This document shows positions 17,904-52,956 of a stretch of DNA of 64,000 bases, in pieces (the stretch's first letter is position 1; every line of letters begins with the position of its first letter). Position numbers and translations under genes: made by a program. The DNA is from Planctomycetaceae bacterium (GTDB taxonomy: Bacteria > Planctomycetota > Planctomycetia > Planctomycetales > Planctomycetaceae): NCBI GenBank assembly GCA_019636285.1, contig JAHBXV010000015.1, forward strand, positions 1-64,000, given 5' to 3'. Under the pieces are notes generated by a model. The model searched no databases. It was given only the letters and a program-made list of their open reading frames with translations, and was not told the origin of the DNA.

Positions 17904-18962
17904 TCACAGAATCAGCATGGCATCGCCATAGCTGAAAAAGCGGTAGTGTTCAGCGACAGCGATGCGATAGGCCTCCATCGTCAGGTCATAACCAGCGAAC
18001 GCGGCAACCAGCATGATGAGCGTCGACTTTGGCAGATGGAAATTGGTCAATAAGACGTCGACGGCCTGAAAGGCAAATCCCGGCCGGATAAAAATATCGG
18101 TGGTGCCGACCCAGGGCTGACCAAATCCCGCCTGAATGGCAGCAGTTTCCAGAGTTCGCACGCTGGTTGTCCCCACCGCGAGAATGCGCCCCCCCCGTTC
18201 GCGACATTGTCGCACGGTGGACGCTGTTTCTTCAGAGACCTGTCCCCACTCCGCGTGCATCCGGTGCTCGGAAACCACTTCGCTGGAGACGGGACGAAAT
18301 GTTCCCAGTCCCACATGCAGAGTCAATTCCGCCCGAGTCACGCCGAGCTGCGCGACGCGACTAAGCACCTCGGGCGTAAAGTGCAACCCAGCCGTGGGAG
18401 CAGCGACCGAACCCGGGTGAACCGCATAAGTCGTCTGGTAGCGTTCGCGATCAACCACGTCGGCCGCATCGCGGTGCATGTAATGAGGCAAGGGAACATC
18501 GCCCACTGATTCTAGAAGCTCCAAAGTGGATGCGTCCGCTCGCGGTCGCATCAGCCACTCGCCCGCTTCTCGTTTCTCAATCAATTCGAGTTCGAGCGTG
18601 CGATCAGCATCGGGCGACCGGAGCGTAATGGACTCTCCCGGCTGCAAGGTTCCCCGCGTCTGCCCGATCACGCGCCACGTTCCGAGCGACTCTTCCGCCA
18701 GAAATAGTCCCTCCCAGCGACCACCAGTTGCCGTGCGAATTCCCTGCAGTTTCGCGGGGATGACGCGACTGTTGTTGAGAACGAGGCAGTCGCCAGCCGA
18801 AAGCAATTCCGGCAGATCGCGAAACTTCCGGTGCCTGAACGTGCCCCGCTGGCGATCGACGACCAGCAGCCGCGAGTCGTCGCGGCGGTCCGCGGGCTGC
18901 CGGGCAATCAGTTCCGGGGGAAGGTGATAGTTAAAAGTTTCGAGCCGGTCGAAATCAGGCAT
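17904..18962 (-). CDS. queA: S-adenosylmethionine:tRNA ribosyltransferase-isomerase
   Basis: Transfers and isomerises the ribose of SAM onto 7-aminomethyl-7-deazaguanine in tRNA, forming epoxyqueuosine. Family signatures: FNYHLPPELIARQPADRRDDSRLLVVDR at the N terminus, LNNSRVIPAKL, HYMHRDA and ERYQTTYA, PTAGLHFT (about residues 175-182), LHVGLGTFRPV, and TNFHLPKSTLIMLV near the C terminus. The length of about 352 residues is normal. ATG at 18962 is preferred; an in-frame TTG at 18980 is possible. It is convergent with the PVC cytochrome gene. gluQ at 4258 acts on the same wobble base of tRNA(Asp) downstream. Confidence 0.95.
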   Translation of the reverse strand: MPDFDRLETFNYHLPPELIARQPADRRDDSRLLVVDRQRGTFRHRKFRDLPELLSAGDCLVLNNSRVIPAKLQGIRTATGGRWEGLFLAEESLGTWRVIGQTRGTLQPGESITLRSPDADRTLELELIEKREAGEWLMRPRADASTLELLESVGDVPLPHYMHRDAADVVDRERYQTTYAVHPGSVAAPTAGLHFTPEVLSRVAQLGVTRAELTLHVGLGTFRPVSSEVVSEHRMHAEWGQVSEETASTVRQCRERGGRILAVGTTSVRTLETAAIQAGFGQPWVGTTDIFIRPGFAFQAVDVLLTNFHLPKSTLIMLVAAFAGYDLTMEAYRIAVAEHYRFFSYGDAMLIL

Positions 18963-19086
18963 TCGCGTTCGTGTCGTCAAAAAGTGTTGTCACATGGCGA
19001 GCATCACATCGTAACCCAAGAAAGCCTCGAATGGCTCGCTGACGGTGAATCGGTTTCACCGGTCGATCTTCAGTTCGGGATGTGAC

Positions 19087-20193
19087 ATGCACCCGCGACA
19101 CCGCATTGCATTCTGCATCACGGAACTCGACCGAGGCGGTGCCGAGGGCGCGCTGACTCGGCTGGTCACGGGACTGGACCGGAGTTTCTGGGAACCCCGA
19201 GTTATCTGCCTGGGCCCCGAAGGGCACTTCACAAGCGTGCTGTTGGAGGCAGGCATTCCCGTTGTCACGCTGGGTGGCCGGGGGCCGATGTCGTTGCCGC
19301 GGGTCTGGTACCGCCTGGTTCGTGAATTCAGAGCGTTCCGCCCGGCAATCGTGCAGTCTTTCCTCTTCCATGCCAACGTGTTGGGAACACTCGCCGCGGC
19401 GCGAGCCGGAGTTCCCGCGCGACTCACCGGGCACCGTGTTTCGGATCGCCGGTCGCGATGGTTCGGGCGCGTCGAACGCTGGGTCGATCGCTGGGTGACC
19501 CGACGCATCTGCGTCAGCCAGGGCGTCGCGGACTATCTGCATCGCGAGTTCGGGTTCGATCCGGCGCGAACCGATGTAATCCCCAACACGATTAGCCCGT
19601 CCGACTGGCAGGTTCCGGCCGCCGATCTGACCCAGTTTGGGTTCGGCCTCAACCACACGGTGCTGCTTACGGTGGGACGACTCGACCGCCAGAAAGGGAC
19701 CGACATATTAGTGAACACTGCCTCGCTGTTGCGATCGACTCATCCCGATTTGCGGTGGCTGGTTGTCGGACCGGGCGATCCCGTTCCCTGGCGGAATCTG
19801 GCGGCACGGAACGGAGTGGCCGAACTCATCCATTTTGCGGGCCCCCGAGACGACGTGGCGGCCCTGATGAACGCAGCTCAGGCACTGGTGCTGGCCTCGC
19901 GATGGGAAGGAATGCCCAACGTGGTCTTGGAAGCGATGGCGGCCGGTTGCCCTGTCATTTCGACCAAAGTTGAAGGGGTTGTGGAGTTGATTGAACCCAA
20001 CCGCAATGGATGGGTGGTCGCCCCCGAAAATCCGGCGGCACTGGCGTCTGCCGTCATTGGCTGTCTTGCCAACCCCGAAACCGCGCGGCGGTATGCCGCT
20101 GAGTCACAAACAATTGTCTCAGAAAAGTTTACGCACGAACGCTCGCTCGCCAAATACGACGCTCTCTATCGCCAGCTTCTCTCATCGCGATAA
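19087..20193 (+). CDS. GT4-family glycosyltransferase
   Basis: A GT-B fold glycosyltransferase of 368 residues, probably using a nucleotide-sugar to extend a cell-surface glycan or glycolipid. The N-terminal acceptor domain begins RIAFCITELDRGGAEGALTRL; the C-terminal donor domain has VLLTVGRLDRQKGTDILV and the E-x7-E signature in SRWEGMPNVVLEAMAAGCPV. ATG at 19087 is used because the family start (H-R-I-A-F-C-I-T) follows directly; the frame extends 14 codons upstream. Cytosolic or peripheral to the inner membrane. No polysaccharide cluster is adjacent, so the product is unknown. Confidence 0.9.
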   Translation: MHPRHRIAFCITELDRGGAEGALTRLVTGLDRSFWEPRVICLGPEGHFTSVLLEAGIPVVTLGGRGPMSLPRVWYRLVREFRAFRPAIVQSFLFHANVLGTLAAARAGVPARLTGHRVSDRRSRWFGRVERWVDRWVTRRICVSQGVADYLHREFGFDPARTDVIPNTISPSDWQVPAADLTQFGFGLNHTVLLTVGRLDRQKGTDILVNTASLLRSTHPDLRWLVVGPGDPVPWRNLAARNGVAELIHFAGPRDDVAALMNAAQALVLASRWEGMPNVVLEAMAAGCPVISTKVEGVVELIEPNRNGWVVAPENPAALASAVIGCLANPETARRYAAESQTIVSEKFTHERSLAKYDALYRQLLSSR

Positions 20194-20348
20194 CCGTCAA
20201 CGTCTCTCCAACCCCTTCAGAAATTTTTTCTGAAAATCTCAATTCACTGCCCCACAAGCAACTACAGCGACGCCAGGGGTAGTCAGACCGCGCTGCGTTC
20301 CGGCAACCGCTTGCATTGCGGACGGACGGATGGCATCTTGGGCCACCG

Positions 20349-20373
20349 TGGGGACGAGTGGGGAAGAGTGGTG
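20349..20373 (+). promoter_or_regulatory. Candidate MraZ operator (three TGGGN-type boxes)
   Basis: Three direct repeats at 10-bp period lie just before the mraZ start: TGGGG (20349), TGGGG (20359) and TGGTG (20369), each separated by 5 bp. Known MraZ proteins bind TGGGN direct repeats with 5-bp spacers in their own promoter. The third box is degenerate and the array ends 4 bp before the ATG, so bound MraZ might also cover the translation start. Confidence 0.7.
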
Positions 20374-20377
20374 GTGA

Positions 20378-20806
20378 ATGGCACTGACCGGGACGTATGA
20401 ACGCTCGATCGATGCCAAGAGCCGCGTCGCCATTCCCAAGCGTCTTTTACAGGATTTTGGTGAAGGCGATCTGGAGTCGCTGTTTATCGCACCAGGGACG
20501 GAGCGTTCACTTGTTCTGTACTCACCCGCCGGCTTCGACGCCCTCGCCCAGAAACTCGCCGAGCGGTCGGGGCACCAGAACTTTCTGCGGCTGTTTTACT
20601 CGAAGGCCGAGCGGGCCGATCTGGACGGGCAGGGGCGCATTCGCATCCCTGAGCGATTGTTCGAGTTCGCCGGTCTCTCGAAGGATGCCTACCTGCTGGG
20701 GATACAAGACCACATTGAAGTCTGGGATCGAGCGATCTGGGACGAATACGTGGCTCGAACAACTCCGCGGTTCGACGAACTCGCGGCGGAAGTCTTTGGG
20801 CAGTAG
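20378..20806 (+). CDS. mraZ: Transcriptional regulator MraZ
   Basis: First gene of bacterial division/cell-wall (dcw) clusters and autorepressor of that cluster. At 142 residues it has two SpoVT/AbrB-like swapped-hairpin domains: TGTYERSIDAKSRVAIPKRL (about 4-23) and SKAERADLDGQGRIRIPERL (about 80-99). Each carries the D-x-K/Q-x-R-x-x-I-P signature. Direct TGGGN-like repeats lie immediately upstream. The next gene is rsmH, as in other bacteria, but after an unusually long 665-bp gap. Confidence 0.95.
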   Translation: MALTGTYERSIDAKSRVAIPKRLLQDFGEGDLESLFIAPGTERSLVLYSPAGFDALAQKLAERSGHQNFLRLFYSKAERADLDGQGRIRIPERLFEFAGLSKDAYLLGIQDHIEVWDRAIWDEYVARTTPRFDELAAEVFGQ

Positions 20807-20913
20807 TCGCGGCACTTCATGACGGCCGCATTCCGGCGAGGGTTCTCTTCGCCCCACACGATGCCCATTAGCTTGAAATCAGATTTTTGAAGTCAAGGGG
20901 TCGTCCGAGAAAC

Positions 20914-20991
20914 CCTGACACAACCGGTTGTGCCTGTCAGAAACCTGCGGAACACCGAGCAAACGCTTCGTTGCACAGAGGTTGTGTCAGG
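20914..20991. repeat. MITE-like dispersed element, copy 1 (78 bp)
   Basis: Bounded by a perfect 12-bp inverted repeat, CCTGACACAACC (20914-20925) and GGTTGTGTCAGG (20980-20991). A related 77-bp copy lies at 52880-52956, with shared internal words such as GTTGCACAGAG/GCTGCACAGAG and GAGCAAAC/CAGGCAAAC. No coding capacity. No clear target-site duplication could be fixed by eye. Confidence 0.7.
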
Positions 20992-21150
20992 AACCTTAAG
21001 AAGGAGTTTCAGGCCGGTCGTTGACGACGCCAGTCAGCGGATACCGCCGGCTTACCGGGCTGCGCGGTTGCAGGGTCGACCATGGAAGGCTCGACAAGAG
21101 TGCCAGGCTGTGGCAGCAGCTTTGGCACAGGTCATTCGCCTCGGCGAGAG

Positions 21151-21188
21151 CCACGGTAGCACGGATGCTACCGTGGCGAGTGGCTTTT
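21151..21188 (+). terminator. Hairpin with T-tract between mraZ and rsmH
   Basis: A perfect 11-bp stem, CCACGGTAGCA / TGCTACCGTGG with a CGGA loop (21151-21176), then CGAGTGGCTTTTT. GAGCCAC just before the stem can also pair with GTGGC before the T-tract. It looks like an intrinsic terminator for the mraZ transcript or an attenuator ahead of rsmH. Confidence 0.55.
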
Positions 21189-21471
21189 TCCGGGAGGCAA
21201 TAGTCCTCCAGCAATTGTCGCGCATCTGCTTACAGCGCCAAGGGCCAATTTCTCCGCAAGGGTGTGATTCTTCCACTCTCGCGGGCTTTTCGTCGTCGCC
21301 TCGCGGCGACCGCCAGCCTCCTGACCTCAAATGGTCTTCGCGCGCGCGGCCCCTTGGCGATATACCCCCGTTGAAATAGCGGCAATTCCTGCGCGTTCGC
21401 GACGTTCGGCGACTATTCTCCGGGCGTCGAAAGCCATCGCGTCGGAAAGGGCAGGACGACGGATACCGGGG

Positions 21472-22383
21472 ATGACCAACCAACCACGCGCGGCGCGACA
21501 TGTCCCGGTCCTGGCGCGCGAAGTGCTTCAGTGGATGGCGCTTGCGCCAGGAATGGCCGTTCTGGATGGAACCGTCGGGGCAGGGGGGCATTCCCGGTTG
21601 ATGTGGGAAGCCATTCAGCCTGAAGGACGACTCCTGGGAATCGATCGCGATACGATGATGCTGCAATTCGCCCGCCAGCAACTTCCGGATGAACGCGTCG
21701 TTCTCTGCCAGGGGAGCTACGCGGATATGGAAGAATTGCGATCGCGATGCAACTTTCCCCAGCCCGATCGGATTCTCCTCGACCTCGGCCTCTCCTCTGA
21801 TCAATTGGCCGACAAGGAACGCGGGTTCGGTTTCGATGCCGGCGGCCCGCTCGACTTGCGGTTTGATACTTCACAAGGCATCCCGGCTTCGGAATTTTTG
21901 CAGACAGCCTCGGAAAACGACCTCACGGCCATGCTCCAAGATCTGGCCGATGAACCCCGAGCGGCGTCGATCGCCCGGGAAGTCGTCCTGACACGCCAGA
22001 CGAATCCTCTCCGGACGGCCGGAGACCTGGCACAGCTTTGCGAGCGCGTTCTGGGAGCACGCGGAACCGGCCCGAAAGACCGTCACCCCGCGACCAGAAC
22101 CTTTCAGGCCCTGCGAATCACCGTGAATCGGGAATTGGAACACGTCAGCCGCGGCCTGGCTGCCGCGCGGACCACGCTGGTTCCCGGCGGACTGATTGGC
22201 GTGATTACGTTTCACTCGCTGGAAGACCGTCTGGTGAAGGCAGAATTCCGCGACGAATCGTACTGGAAAGTGGTCACTCCCAAGCCAATCGCCGCCTCAC
22301 CGGCAGAGCAGAGATTTAACCCCCGCAGTCGATCGGCGAAACTCCGGGTGGCCCAGCGACTTCCGGGAAATTCGGCCGGCTGA
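21472..22383 (+). CDS. rsmH: 16S rRNA (cytosine-1402 N4)-methyltransferase
   Basis: A SAM-dependent methyltransferase (formerly MraW) acting on C1402 in the decoding centre. 303 residues. The family start HVPVLAREVLQWM is followed by the SAM loop LDGTVGAGGHSRLMWE (about residues 31-46). Then come LLDLGLSSDQLADKERGFGF, LRFDTSQG, RTFQALRITVNREL, GGLIGVITFHSLEDRLVK and a C-terminal FNPRSRSAKLRV. ATG at 21472 is chosen by homology; upstream codons in this frame look non-coding. It lies 62 bp before the LysM gene, probably one transcript with ftsL and ftsI. Confidence 0.96.
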   Translation: MTNQPRAARHVPVLAREVLQWMALAPGMAVLDGTVGAGGHSRLMWEAIQPEGRLLGIDRDTMMLQFARQQLPDERVVLCQGSYADMEELRSRCNFPQPDRILLDLGLSSDQLADKERGFGFDAGGPLDLRFDTSQGIPASEFLQTASENDLTAMLQDLADEPRAASIAREVVLTRQTNPLRTAGDLAQLCERVLGARGTGPKDRHPATRTFQALRITVNRELEHVSRGLAAARTTLVPGGLIGVITFHSLEDRLVKAEFRDESYWKVVTPKPIAASPAEQRFNPRSRSAKLRVAQRLPGNSAG

Positions 22384-22445
22384 CTCGTTGAAACGATTAC
22401 GTCTCGGATCAACACGATCCGCCAATTTTCGCAAGGATGCGAACC

Positions 22446-24344
22446 ATGGCCCGCGAAACCAAACTTGGATTGGGACTTGTCCTGATTCTGCTGACCGTCT
22501 TTGGATTCCTGGTCTACAAGCGCGCCGTCAACCCGCTTGTGACCGAAGGCGATCCGTCCGAAATCGCCCAGGTCGAGCAGAATGACTCGGAATCGCAAAC
22601 GGCTGCGAAAGAAGAAGTTCCGACTACGGAAACGATCGTCCGGACGTCCGGAGAAACGACCTCTGGCGTCTTGGCGCGGCCGGAATCGTCGAGCGACCCG
22701 TTCGCCAATGCCGCGCAATTCGAGCCTTCTAACGAGGCGGGCGAACGTACCGCCGTGAAAACGGCCACGTCTGGCTCCCGCCCGGCTTTGCCGACTGCAA
22801 TTGATGGCGACCCTTTTTCCAGTCAGGGCAATGGAGCCAATCCGGGAAAGGCCACTGTCGCCATGGATCAGTTCACCTCCCAGGATGATGGGGGCGATCC
22901 GTTTTCCGATTCGCCGTCGACGGGGAAGTCCGCTACGGTCGCGGCCAGTGAACAAACATCGGTAGACGGTGATCCGTTCGGGGCCACTTCGACGGCTGCC
23001 GCCAGACCTACCGCCACGGCCGGAAAGTCACTTCCCGCCCTGCCGACCAACGCGGATGACCCGTTCGGTGACGACGCGGAACCGGTTGAGATGGCTACCG
23101 CCGCGACCAACGATTCCAAGCCGGGGGACAGCAACGATCCGTTCACCGTCGAGCCGACGGCGACGAAAAAGTCGGAACCGGCCGCAGTCGCGCTTCCGGT
23201 ACTCGGCAACCTCGAGCCAAACGATGTCCGACCAGTAACCAGGACTCCGGAACTGACAGAAATCGAGTCGAACGATCGTGATTTCGGGGCCGACGCGGCG
23301 GCCATGGTGGAACGAGCCGTTGAGGAGAAGCCAGGCACTGATCCATTTTCGGGCGGTCCGGCGATGAGTTTCGAGCCGATTGAAGAACGTCCTGGACCGC
23401 GAACATTCCCCGCCGCGAAGTCGGCGCGACCGGTGGAACTTCTGCCGGAACCGGAAGACCCACCGGCATCGATCGCGAATCGGGCATCCGATGGCGATCC
23501 GTTCGGCACCGGTGCCAAGCCTGCGCCGGGCCTCGAGCCCGTTCCGGAAACCCGATCGGTCCCGGTCGATCCCTTTCCAGCGGCGGAAGTTCCGACAAGC
23601 CGTCCGGTGATCGGACAACAGCCGAAGATTGCGGCCCCCGCCGCCATCGAAAGCGATCCGTTTGGTAGCCCGGCCAAAACTGAATTCGAGCCTCCTGCTC
23701 GGACTCCGACCATGGTTGACTCATCCCCGGATGGTTTTGAATCGCCCGTTGAAGTCTCAAGCCCGACGTTTGGGCCCTCGAATCGTACCGCCCCATCGAG
23801 CACGCTACTTCCTGGGATTGGCGTGGGCATCGCGAATGCCGATGTTCGGCAGCCGCAAGCCGCCGATCGCCAAATCCAGGAGGGGGACAATTTCTGGTCG
23901 TTGAGCCGGGAGATCTACGGCACCGGGCGGTATTGGAAAGCGTTGCAGGCATTCAATGCCGATCGGGTTCCCGATCCGAATCGCATGAAACTCGGTACCC
24001 GCATCGCGACTCCCTCGACGGATGTGCTGGAACAGAGGCATGCGAATCTGATCCCCCGCGCGGCTATTCCGGAACTGGCGATTCAGCCGTCGTCCGGGGT
24101 CGCCAACCTGGGCGGCGAGCAGCCGGGATTCTTCATTGGAGACCAGGGAGTTCCAATGTATCGCGTGGGTTCGGAAGACACCCTCTCGACCATCGCCGAA
24201 CGCCACCTCGGCCGGTCCTCGCGATGGATCCAGGTCTTTGAGATGAATCGAGACACCCTCAAGAACGGCAATGACCTCAAGATCGGATCGGTTCTGCGAC
24301 TGCCAGCCGATGCGAGCCAGGTTCAACTGGTGAGCGACCGCTAA
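22446..24344 (+). CDS. Membrane-anchored LysM protein with ten DPF motifs
   Basis: A 632-residue bitopic protein. Residues about 7-24 form one transmembrane helix (LGLGLVLILLTVFGFLVY) after a short cytosolic N terminus, placing the rest in the periplasm. A long Pro/Ala/Thr-rich disordered region (about 30-460) carries ten DPF tripeptides, mostly as GDPF or SDPF, at irregular spacing of about 20-75 residues. Two LysM-type peptidoglycan-binding domains follow: EGDNFWSLSREIYGTGRYWK (about 480) and GSEDTLSTIAERHLGRSSRW (about 573). ATG at 22446 has AAGG 9 nt upstream; an in-frame ATG at 22437 is less well placed. It sits between rsmH and ftsL/ftsI. A role in septal wall handling is inference. Confidence 0.85.
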   Translation: MARETKLGLGLVLILLTVFGFLVYKRAVNPLVTEGDPSEIAQVEQNDSESQTAAKEEVPTTETIVRTSGETTSGVLARPESSSDPFANAAQFEPSNEAGERTAVKTATSGSRPALPTAIDGDPFSSQGNGANPGKATVAMDQFTSQDDGGDPFSDSPSTGKSATVAASEQTSVDGDPFGATSTAAARPTATAGKSLPALPTNADDPFGDDAEPVEMATAATNDSKPGDSNDPFTVEPTATKKSEPAAVALPVLGNLEPNDVRPVTRTPELTEIESNDRDFGADAAAMVERAVEEKPGTDPFSGGPAMSFEPIEERPGPRTFPAAKSARPVELLPEPEDPPASIANRASDGDPFGTGAKPAPGLEPVPETRSVPVDPFPAAEVPTSRPVIGQQPKIAAPAAIESDPFGSPAKTEFEPPARTPTMVDSSPDGFESPVEVSSPTFGPSNRTAPSSTLLPGIGVGIANADVRQPQAADRQIQEGDNFWSLSREIYGTGRYWKALQAFNADRVPDPNRMKLGTRIATPSTDVLEQRHANLIPRAAIPELAIQPSSGVANLGGEQPGFFIGDQGVPMYRVGSEDTLSTIAERHLGRSSRWIQVFEMNRDTLKNGNDLKIGSVLRLPADASQVQLVSDR

Positions 24345-24412
24345 GCCAGCCGATTCCAACGAAGATCGGCGTCGACTCGTGTCCGAGTCTGACAAGACCG
24401 GAAGGGAACAAA

Positions 24413-24637
24413 GTGTTTTTTCGGTTCGCGGCCGCGATCGCCATGATTGTCGCGATGGGGCTGACCGCAACGGCCTTGGAGAAACACAACCTGGAGTTGA
24501 ATCGGACAATTGCCCATCGCCAGTACCGACTGGAACTCTTGCGGGAGCGTGAAGCCCGTTTGCGAGCGGAAGTTCAGGGGTTGGCCACGCCTGCGGCCCT
24601 GTATCGGCAAGACGCTGCTTCCAGCTCCTCCCCATGA
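24413..24637 (+). CDS. Small FtsL-like bitopic protein
   Basis: A 74-residue protein starting at GTG 24413 with GAAGGGA upstream. It has one N-terminal membrane helix (FRFAAAIAMIVAMGLTATAL, residues 3-22) and then a charged heptad-rich segment (about 24-60, NLELNRTIAHRQYRLELLRE) predicted as a coiled coil. Size, topology and position directly before ftsI are those of FtsL, a partner of FtsB/FtsQ that regulates septal synthesis. Its stop overlaps the ftsI start in ATGA, so the two are translationally coupled. FtsL diverges too fast for a firm call from sequence alone. Confidence 0.7.
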   Translation: MFFRFAAAIAMIVAMGLTATALEKHNLELNRTIAHRQYRLELLREREARLRAEVQGLATPAALYRQDAASSSSP

Positions 24638-26469
24638 CCAGCCCGCCTCCGGAGAACGTCGTGACGAGGTGGCTCGATCCGCGGCGCTGGTTTCATCGCG
24701 TCGTGCCGCCGATGGCCGGAAACGAACCAGCCTCGATCGATTCGCCTGCCGCGCCGCCGCCTGAAACATTCTGGTGGCGCAATGTCGCGGCGGCGGGAAC
24801 TCTGGTCGTTGCCGGGCTGGTTCTGGCCGGTCGTTTGACGTGGCTGCAAGTCGTCGAACGGGAAGAATTTGGCAAACGCGCTGTACGGCAAAGCGTGGTC
24901 GAGGAGGAAACCGTTCCTCGTCCGGGAGACATCCACGATCGGGCCGGACGCCTGCTTGCCACCAGCGTCCAGACTTCGAGCCTGTACATCGTTCCCAGTC
25001 GAATTCGCGAGCGCTGGACGGTCGCGGGACAACTGGCGGATGCGTTGGAACTGAATCGTGACTCGCTCTACGAGCGAATCGCGTCGCACCGGCACTTTTT
25101 GTGGGTGAAACGCCGCCTGTCGGACGAGGAACTCAAACGGGTCCAGGCACTCGAGCTGCCCGCCGAGATCTGGGGGCTTCGAGCGGAGTATCAGCGGGTT
25201 TATCCCCTGGGCTCGCTCGCCGCGCATGTGCTCGGGCTGCGCGATGTCGATGGAATCGGGCATGGCGGCGTCGAACAGCAGTTTCAGGAACACCTGCGGG
25301 GAACCCCGGGGAAACGACGGCTGGTCCGCGATTCACGGGGCCGCGTCATCGAGTTGGATTCGACTCTGGAAGCCCGGGCCCGCGACGGTCGGCCCATTCA
25401 ACTGACTCTCGACGCGGTCGTTCAGCAGATTGTCGAAATTCAACTCGATGCCGTGATGTCGGCGTGGCAGCCGGAAGGGTGCTCGGCCATCGCGCTCGAT
25501 CCCGCGACGGGTCAGGTTCTGGCCATGGCATCGCGGCCGGCTTATGACCCAAACAATCCCGCGGCGGCTCCGCTCGGCGGGTGGAAGAATCGTGCGATCA
25601 GTGCGATCCACGAGCCCGGTTCCACCATCAAGCCGCTGATTGTTGCCCACGCCCTGCATCAAGACGCCATTCGCCGCGATGAGTCCTTCAACTGCGAATA
25701 CGGCCAGTATCGCATGGGTCGCAGAGTCCTCCACGACCATCACGCCTATGGACGGCTGAGCCTGGTCGATGTGCTGGTGAAGTCCAGCAACATCGGCATG
25801 GCCAAAATTGGCGAGCGGATGACGAACGCTGGACTTTACGAAGCGACCGTCGCCTTTGGATTTGGCCGACCGACGGGCATTGAATTGCCGGGGGAATTGC
25901 CGGGAATCCTCAGGCCATTGGACAAGTGGAATGGTTACTCAACGGGATCAATTCCCATGGGGCACGAACTGGCCATGACGCCATTGCAACTGATCGTCGG
26001 CCACGCGGCGCTCGCGAACCACGGCGTCTGGCAGCAACCACGACTGGTCCTCCCCACAGGTTCCTCCGCCGAAGATCGCTCGGTCCAGCAGCGAGTGGTT
26101 TCCTCGGAAATTGCCGACTGGATCGTTCAGGAACCCATGACCGAAGTCGTGCGGCGGGGGACCGGAACGCGTGCCAAACTGTCCGATCGCGTCGTATTCG
26201 GAAAAACTGGCACGGCTCAAGCGCTCACTCCGGAAGGAAGCTACCGTTCCGATCGCTATGTCAGTTCGTTCCTGGGGGGCAGCCCACCGGAGAATCCCCG
26301 ACTGCTTGTCCTGGTGGTCGTGGATCAAGCCGCCGAGGGAAGTGAGCAATTTGGGGGCAAAGTTGCTGCTCCCGCAGTGGCAGCCATTTTGAAGCAGTCG
26401 CTCGATTATCTCGATGGCGGCTCGGCAGGCGTGCTGACAGACCGCCCCGAAAAGTCGTCCCGCCGATGA
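24634..26469 (+). CDS. ftsI: Class B penicillin-binding protein (septal transpeptidase, FtsI type)
   Basis: A D,D-transpeptidase that cross-links septal peptidoglycan, anchored by one helix (VAAAGTLVVAGLVLAGRLTW, residues 51-70) with the catalytic domain in the periplasm. 611 residues. The dimerisation motif RPGDIHDRAGRLLATS (about 96-111) is present. All active-site motifs are kept: S330-T-I-K333, S384-S-N386 and K524-T-G. The N-terminal 45 cytosolic residues are Pro-rich. It overlaps the FtsL-like gene by 4 bp. No murE, mraY, ftsW, murC-G, ftsQ, ftsA or ftsZ follows; the next genes are for glycolate oxidation. Planctomycetes lack FtsZ, so its partner machinery must differ. Confidence 0.93.
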   Translation: MTSPPPENVVTRWLDPRRWFHRVVPPMAGNEPASIDSPAAPPPETFWWRNVAAAGTLVVAGLVLAGRLTWLQVVEREEFGKRAVRQSVVEEETVPRPGDIHDRAGRLLATSVQTSSLYIVPSRIRERWTVAGQLADALELNRDSLYERIASHRHFLWVKRRLSDEELKRVQALELPAEIWGLRAEYQRVYPLGSLAAHVLGLRDVDGIGHGGVEQQFQEHLRGTPGKRRLVRDSRGRVIELDSTLEARARDGRPIQLTLDAVVQQIVEIQLDAVMSAWQPEGCSAIALDPATGQVLAMASRPAYDPNNPAAAPLGGWKNRAISAIHEPGSTIKPLIVAHALHQDAIRRDESFNCEYGQYRMGRRVLHDHHAYGRLSLVDVLVKSSNIGMAKIGERMTNAGLYEATVAFGFGRPTGIELPGELPGILRPLDKWNGYSTGSIPMGHELAMTPLQLIVGHAALANHGVWQQPRLVLPTGSSAEDRSVQQRVVSSEIADWIVQEPMTEVVRRGTGTRAKLSDRVVFGKTGTAQALTPEGSYRSDRYVSSFLGGSPPENPRLLVLVVVDQAAEGSEQFGGKVAAPAVAAILKQSLDYLDGGSAGVLTDRPEKSSRR

Positions 26470-52877: not shown

Positions 52878-52879
52878 CC

Positions 52880-52956
52880 CCTGACACAACCGGCTGTGCC
52901 TGCCAAATACTGTGAAAGGCCAGGCAAACATCTCGCTGCACAGAGGATGTGTGAGA
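52880..52956. repeat. MITE-like dispersed element, copy 2 (77 bp)
   Basis: Begins CCTGACACAACC exactly as copy 1 (20914) and ends GGATGTGTGAGA, a decayed version of GGTTGTGTCAGG. It starts 3 bp after the stop of the BRCT-MerR-TPR gene and sits between that gene and a convergent small membrane protein gene. Confidence 0.65.

Follow-up and report, generated by a model that had tools for sequence, protein, structure and literature searches.

The canonical dcw cluster is arranged in the order mraZ-rsmH-ftsL-ftsI-murE-murF-mraY-murD-ftsW-murG-murC-ddl-ftsQ-ftsA-ftsZ. SPOR proteins of the FtsN/DamX/DedD type possess a single N-terminal transmembrane (TM) helix, a long disordered periplasmic linker and a C-terminal wall-binding domain. 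A TM segment is combined with LysM in bitopic division modulators of the YneA/ChiZ type, reported to act on divisome proteins; these are SOS-linked or mycobacterial, short, and equipped with one LysM.

How planctomycetes divide without FtsZ is an unsolved question. Their dcw cluster is degraded and FtsZ-less (PMC4432640, PMC5147048, PMC12283558). Deletion of the ftsI orthologue of P. limnophila, where FtsI is listed as Plim_1789 (PMC12283558), left growth and budding unchanged (PMC6952346), and further dcw genes are likewise dispensable in this species (PMC10632474); it still divides when the classical genes ftsI, ftsW or mreB are deleted. The literature that we searched mentions neither a planctomycete LysM division protein nor the persistence of a LysM gene by rsmH, an earlier mention being possible.

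The window, a stretch of 64,000 nucleotides from a bacterium of the family Planctomycetaceae, is part of contig C21 in a genome of 6.37 Mb (99.8% complete). Six-frame open reading frames and profile scans reveal mraZ, rsmH, ftsL and ftsI as a contiguous and co-oriented group with a single insertion, a gene for a LysM protein, between rsmH and ftsL. All five genes lie at the place and on the strand claimed by a sequence-only reading, and together they make up the 5' end of a dcw cluster. The locus shares with the canonical cluster the order of the first block, MraZ-type repeats and the overlap of ftsL with ftsI, and differs from it in the inserted LysM gene.

The first gene, mraZ (20378..20806, plus strand), codes for a dcw-cluster transcriptional regulator of 142 amino acids (Pfam MraZ, 87.7 bits, E 5e-25); against TIGR00242 it reaches 90.3 bits, slightly below the cut-off of 98.35. 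Its ATG is abutted by three 10-bp direct repeats, GTGGGGACGA, GTGGGGAAGA and GTGGTGGTGA (20348..20377, plus strand), which display the pattern of the MraZ regulon: GTGG-type direct repeats with a 10-bp period 5' of mraZ. Almost all examined relatives with mraZ have repeats of GTGGGG/GTGGT type in front of the gene or close to it. The operator-like repeats noticed earlier are borne out, and we regard those at 20348-20377 as a candidate MraZ operator. The next gene, rsmH (mraW; 21472..22383, plus strand), encodes the 16S rRNA m4C1402 methyltransferase (TIGR00006, 256 bits, cut-off 154); its reading frame is open from 21331, and homology favours the later start at 21472. A conserved RNA in the mraZ-rsmH gap was considered and rejected: no Rfam match occurs in the window, and the gap carries a dispersed repeat of about 83 bp instead (20908-20990). 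Copies of this repeat are located on contigs C54 (L038 3613-3694, 92% identity) and C39 (L039 5079-5189, 77%) and once more in the window (52879-52955, 78%).

The gene 5' of ftsI (24413..24637, plus strand) encodes a bitopic protein of 74 residues with a GTG start at 24413, supported by relatives whose proteins begin M-F-F-R-F, and overlaps ftsI via ATGA, as had been described. The protein has the shape of FtsL, being small and bitopic, with a TM helix followed by a coil-like C-terminal part (coiled coil judged by eye). Its matches to FtsL/DivIC profiles are all sub-threshold (E 0.009-0.03); when the aligned family proteins were compared with the NCBIfam FtsL models, several matched, the best at E 0.0007, and none reached the curated cut-off. 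Therefore, the name FtsL rests mainly on position and shape.

The product of ftsI (24634..26469, plus strand) is a class B penicillin-binding protein (PBP) of the FtsI/PBP3 type, with a transpeptidase domain (E 5e-60) and a PBP_dimer domain (E 8e-17). The catalytic motifs announced for it are present (S330-x-x-K333, S384-x-N386 and K524-T-G526) and invariant across the family alignment. Among solved structures in the PDB, FtsI/PBP3 is its nearest relative (E 2e-74 vs 2e-30 for MrdA/PBP2). SpoVD ranked first in NCBIfam, with no match above any cut-off. Assignment as PBP2 or SpoVD is less likely in view of the PDB ranking and of a separate PBP2 gene next to mreB-mreC on contig C32.

No FtsZ or tubulin was found in the whole genome, while 13 of 14 control genomes gave a match, which agrees with the earlier assumption of an FtsZ-less planctomycete. 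The genome contains three matches to the FtsA family (PF14450), and all were rejected as FtsA candidates because they are MreB, PilM and DnaK; FtsA thus appears to be absent too. One of these matches is explained by a long PilM-like protein, a relative of the Amuc_1101 family, encoded on the contig of the window and outside it (G000 C21:75834-76199, L225). For FtsQ, no convincing POTRA match was recognised in the genome.

The sequence-only reading had spoken of a cut-down dcw locus from which the mur genes, mraY, ftsW, ftsQ, ftsA and ftsZ were absent. This is correct for the locus itself, where none of the mur genes, mraY or ftsW directly follows ftsI, and for ftsZ and ftsA it extends to the genome as a whole. 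The mur genes, mraY and ftsW, however, reside on other contigs: murE-murF-mraY-ftsW-murG on C54, murC-murB-ddl on C37 and murD on C65, in addition to a gene for the RodA-type SEDS protein (rodA) on C39. The blocks on C54 and C37 largely keep the classical order, with murD moved away from its place between mraY and ftsW. Since the remaining genes are found elsewhere in blocks that retain much of their order, the cluster has been broken up rather than cut down, and a reduced genome can be dismissed, the lipid II genes being present. A search for an intact dcw cluster elsewhere yielded only these dispersed pieces, a result that tells in part against the earlier idea. The loss of dcw genes is here partly fragmentation. 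In its scattered, FtsZ-less state the genome resembles the dcw genes known from other members of the phylum, including P. limnophila with its dispensable ftsI.

Named relatives with an orthologous ftsI include members of Schlesneria, Planctomyces, Gimesia, Fuerstiella, Planctomicrobium and Thalassoglobus, that is, to the Planctomycetaceae. The LysM gene is present in the fetched stretch of 36 of 40 family neighbourhoods; rsmH lies directly 5' of it in 34 of these 36 loci, and ftsL and ftsI accompany it in all 36. Two of the four remaining genomes (G018, G024) have the LysM gene adjoining rsmH elsewhere, apart from ftsL-ftsI. Among 80 named loci, RsmH-LysM-FtsL before FtsI, with or without MraZ, is by far the commonest arrangement, and most of the remaining loci lack enough sequence on the 5' side. 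Of 20 LysM loci from the phylum's other classes, 10 have the gene after rsmH, nine of them with FtsI farther downstream; an FtsL-like reading frame of about 90-110 amino acids lies between LysM and FtsI in L129, L130, L134, L136, L137, L140 and L141. The LysM gene must have been inserted long ago, given that family members share the order rsmH-LysM-ftsL-ftsI and that it turns up again in other classes. Comparison of gene order thus upholds the proposal that the LysM and small bitopic genes stay next to ftsI. The LysM protein may also be called lineage-specific, as had been suggested, provided that the lineage is taken as a large one, spread over the class and recurring in other classes.

The LysM protein is encoded at 22446..24344 on the plus strand; its start at 22446 (MARETK...) is favoured, and relatives keep the same start. 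Its layout consists of a short, presumably cytoplasmic MARETKLGL stub, one TM helix, a long low-complexity, DPF-rich linker, probably periplasmic, and two C-terminal LysM domains at about 23856-24014 and about 24150-24308. The Pfam LysM model by itself (E 4e-8) detects the second domain only. AlphaFold2 predicts two beta-alpha-alpha-beta units, the fold expected of LysM, in the C-terminal 171 residues (pLDDT about 90), and the best Foldseek matches of the model are LysM domains of bacterial endopeptidases, of a fungal chitin-binding effector and of plant chitin receptors. The arrangement of TM helix, linker and wall-binding domain is analogous to that of FtsN, DamX and DedD, an analogy of architecture and not homology, in which disorder of the linker and binding to the wall are suppositions. 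Two LysM domains occupy the place of SPOR and the gene is located in the dcw cluster; a link to FtsA or denuded glycans would be hypothetical. A Pfam scan found no SPOR domain in the LysM protein, which is therefore not a member of the FtsN family. With YneA and ChiZ it has TM and LysM in common, again a likeness of architecture, and it differs from them in its long linker, its second LysM domain and its location in the dcw cluster.

Within the linker (window 22600-23700 and its counterparts in the family), DPF was seen 100 times against 6.5 expected and NPF 24 times against 2.9; in linkers from other orders DPF was seen 5 times against 1.7. Since DPF is hardly enriched in other orders, it is not ancestral to the LysM protein and was discarded as its defining feature; the enrichment of DPF and NPF in this family only suggests a family-specific short binding motif. 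A juxtamembrane motif like MxRETKxGL/RETKxGL precedes the TM helix in many rsmH-linked copies from the family, the class and the phylum (a lower bound, the pattern being strict) and in none of 10 unlinked LysM copies. The shared motif points to common descent of the linked copies. In three relatives, L054 (5472-6908), L065 (10487-11692) and L068 (10744-11949), the hydrophobic segment of the LysM protein resembles a cleavable signal peptide, so anchoring in the membrane is probably not universal.

Distribution of these genes over the class separates the LysM gene from its division neighbours. A survey of 199 class genomes found matches to the FtsI profile (E up to 1e-60) in 50, nearly all from this family, to SEDS in 58, to PBP_dimer in 58 and to LysM in 163, a count that may include generic LysM proteins; linkage was checked in fetched loci picked by LysM score. 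Outside the family, all 7 genomes with SEDS have the LysM gene directly after rsmH, as do 25 of the 28 that lack SEDS; one of the exceptions lies at a contig edge. With the exception of G112, which has one weaker match, the SEDS-less genomes have no dimer domain of a class B PBP either, and the orders that have lost both and retain LysM after rsmH include presumably Isosphaera pallida (G066). In other orders of the class no FtsL-like reading frame (by the TM criterion) follows the LysM gene, and no gene recurs downstream of it in the FtsI-less orders, so a replacement gene at this place was rejected. Within the family, two genomes of one genus (G013, G032) have lost FtsI, of which no remnant was found there, and keep LysM and FtsL, with a single SEDS protein and a single class B PBP in place of two each. 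In the loci L084 (8049-8336) and L085 (7829-8107), FtsL is kept without FtsI and glcD comes soon downstream, as in the window.

Judged by these gene neighbourhoods, the LysM gene has a closer bond with rsmH than with ftsI and is deeply conserved, and the fates of ftsL-ftsI and rsmH-LysM are separable. Peptidoglycan components have been measured in Gemmata obscuriglobus, Rhodopirellula baltica and P. limnophila (PMC4432640), hence a ligand for LysM can exist in such orders.

The same distribution bears on the view that ftsL-ftsI is a decaying relic of little function, in a cluster heading to the FtsI-less state of the sister orders. It could appeal to the dispensability of ftsI in P. limnophila (PMC6952346, PMC10632474), to the fact that FtsI was not found in the majority of the class's other orders and to its loss in one genus of the family. 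Here, however, FtsI is intact, its catalytic motifs are invariant across the family, and it has been retained by at least 48 genomes in a sample of 51 from the family. Such a relic is therefore very unlikely. A septal role of FtsI is plausible by family; it is not required in one tested species, as the P. limnophila deletion had no effect. The genome that we infer to be Planctopirus limnophila (G020) has the order LysM-FtsL-FtsI.

Our preferred explanation, to which we assign a probability of roughly 0.55 as a whole, is that a split 5' segment of the dcw cluster carries the gene of an FtsI-independent tether from the inner membrane to the wall. The locus would represent the segment mraZ-rsmH-[LysM]-ftsL-ftsI of a cluster fragmented without loss of the lipid II pathway. 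It is probable that FtsI with FtsL continues to work with FtsW, whose gene lies elsewhere, as a transpeptidase/polymerase pair of septal type alongside RodA-PBP2. As the long periplasmic linker of the LysM protein ends in two LysM domains, the most likely role of the protein is to tether the inner membrane to peptidoglycan: anchored in the membrane with its N-terminus inside, it would span the periplasm with its linker and grip the wall with both domains. Its job would be independent of FtsL, FtsI and FtsW, because its place after rsmH is kept when those are gone. It is probably a general tether of the wall or of envelope growth and may additionally serve bud or septum. Three points count against a tether: Kbp-type LysM proteins bind potassium, membrane anchoring seems not to be universal, and persistence by rsmH could be operon inertia.

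In its full form, the last of these points makes the LysM protein an envelope protein with no division role, whose gene entered the dcw cluster once and has been held by rsmH through a shared promoter or operon inertia. The lack of a conserved gene 3' of LysM in FtsI-less orders fits with this, and the product of rsmH itself methylates rRNA and is no division protein. Yet the rsmH-LysM linkage has held over phylum-scale divergence while flanking ftsL-ftsI were lost, and the conserved juxtamembrane motif suggests a specific membrane role; inertia has, in our judgement, a low probability.

The other reading, close to that proposed from the sequence, casts the LysM protein as a partner dedicated to FtsL-FtsI when peptidoglycan is made at the septum or bud, acting as an FtsN-like activator in a residual septal machine. 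It gains from the constant place of the gene, after rsmH and before ftsL, in the family and in several other classes, from the FtsN-like architecture and from the presence, in almost all family genomes, of a second SEDS protein together with FtsI. To speak of the remains of a septal machine is thus partly fitting, as the locus is a 5' dcw end with LysM and FtsL by ftsI; the rest of the dcw genes, however, lie elsewhere. Membership of the LysM protein in such a machine is weakened by its persistence in the 25 of 28 SEDS-less loci, where FtsL, FtsI and SEDS genes are gone, by the two family genomes in which LysM-rsmH is apart from ftsL-ftsI, and by the lack of a growth or budding phenotype of the P. 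limnophila deletion (PMC6952346). We regard this reading as doubtful and a mere accessory of FtsI as unlikely.

Returning to the tether, its presence beside rsmH even where septal wall synthases are lost makes the LysM protein a good candidate for a part of envelope building or division. Encoded in the division cluster over much of the phylum and kept where classical genes are lost, it offers a testable candidate in a tractable organism. A bolder idea, which we consider quite unlikely, makes it a core component of envelope constriction without FtsZ throughout Planctomycetota: a tether that grips the wall, outlasts FtsW-FtsI and organises bud neck or septum in their absence.

The glc genes 3' of ftsI, reported earlier, are real; GlcD is near ftsI in 2 of 40 family neighbourhoods, and glycolate oxidase genes were ruled out as members of the unit since the neighbourhood is not conserved. 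On the 5' side of mraZ-rsmH, queA (minus strand) and a gene for a family-4 glycosyltransferase occupy positions 17904-20193, and the two recur upstream in about 15 of the 40 loci from the family, as well as in some other orders.
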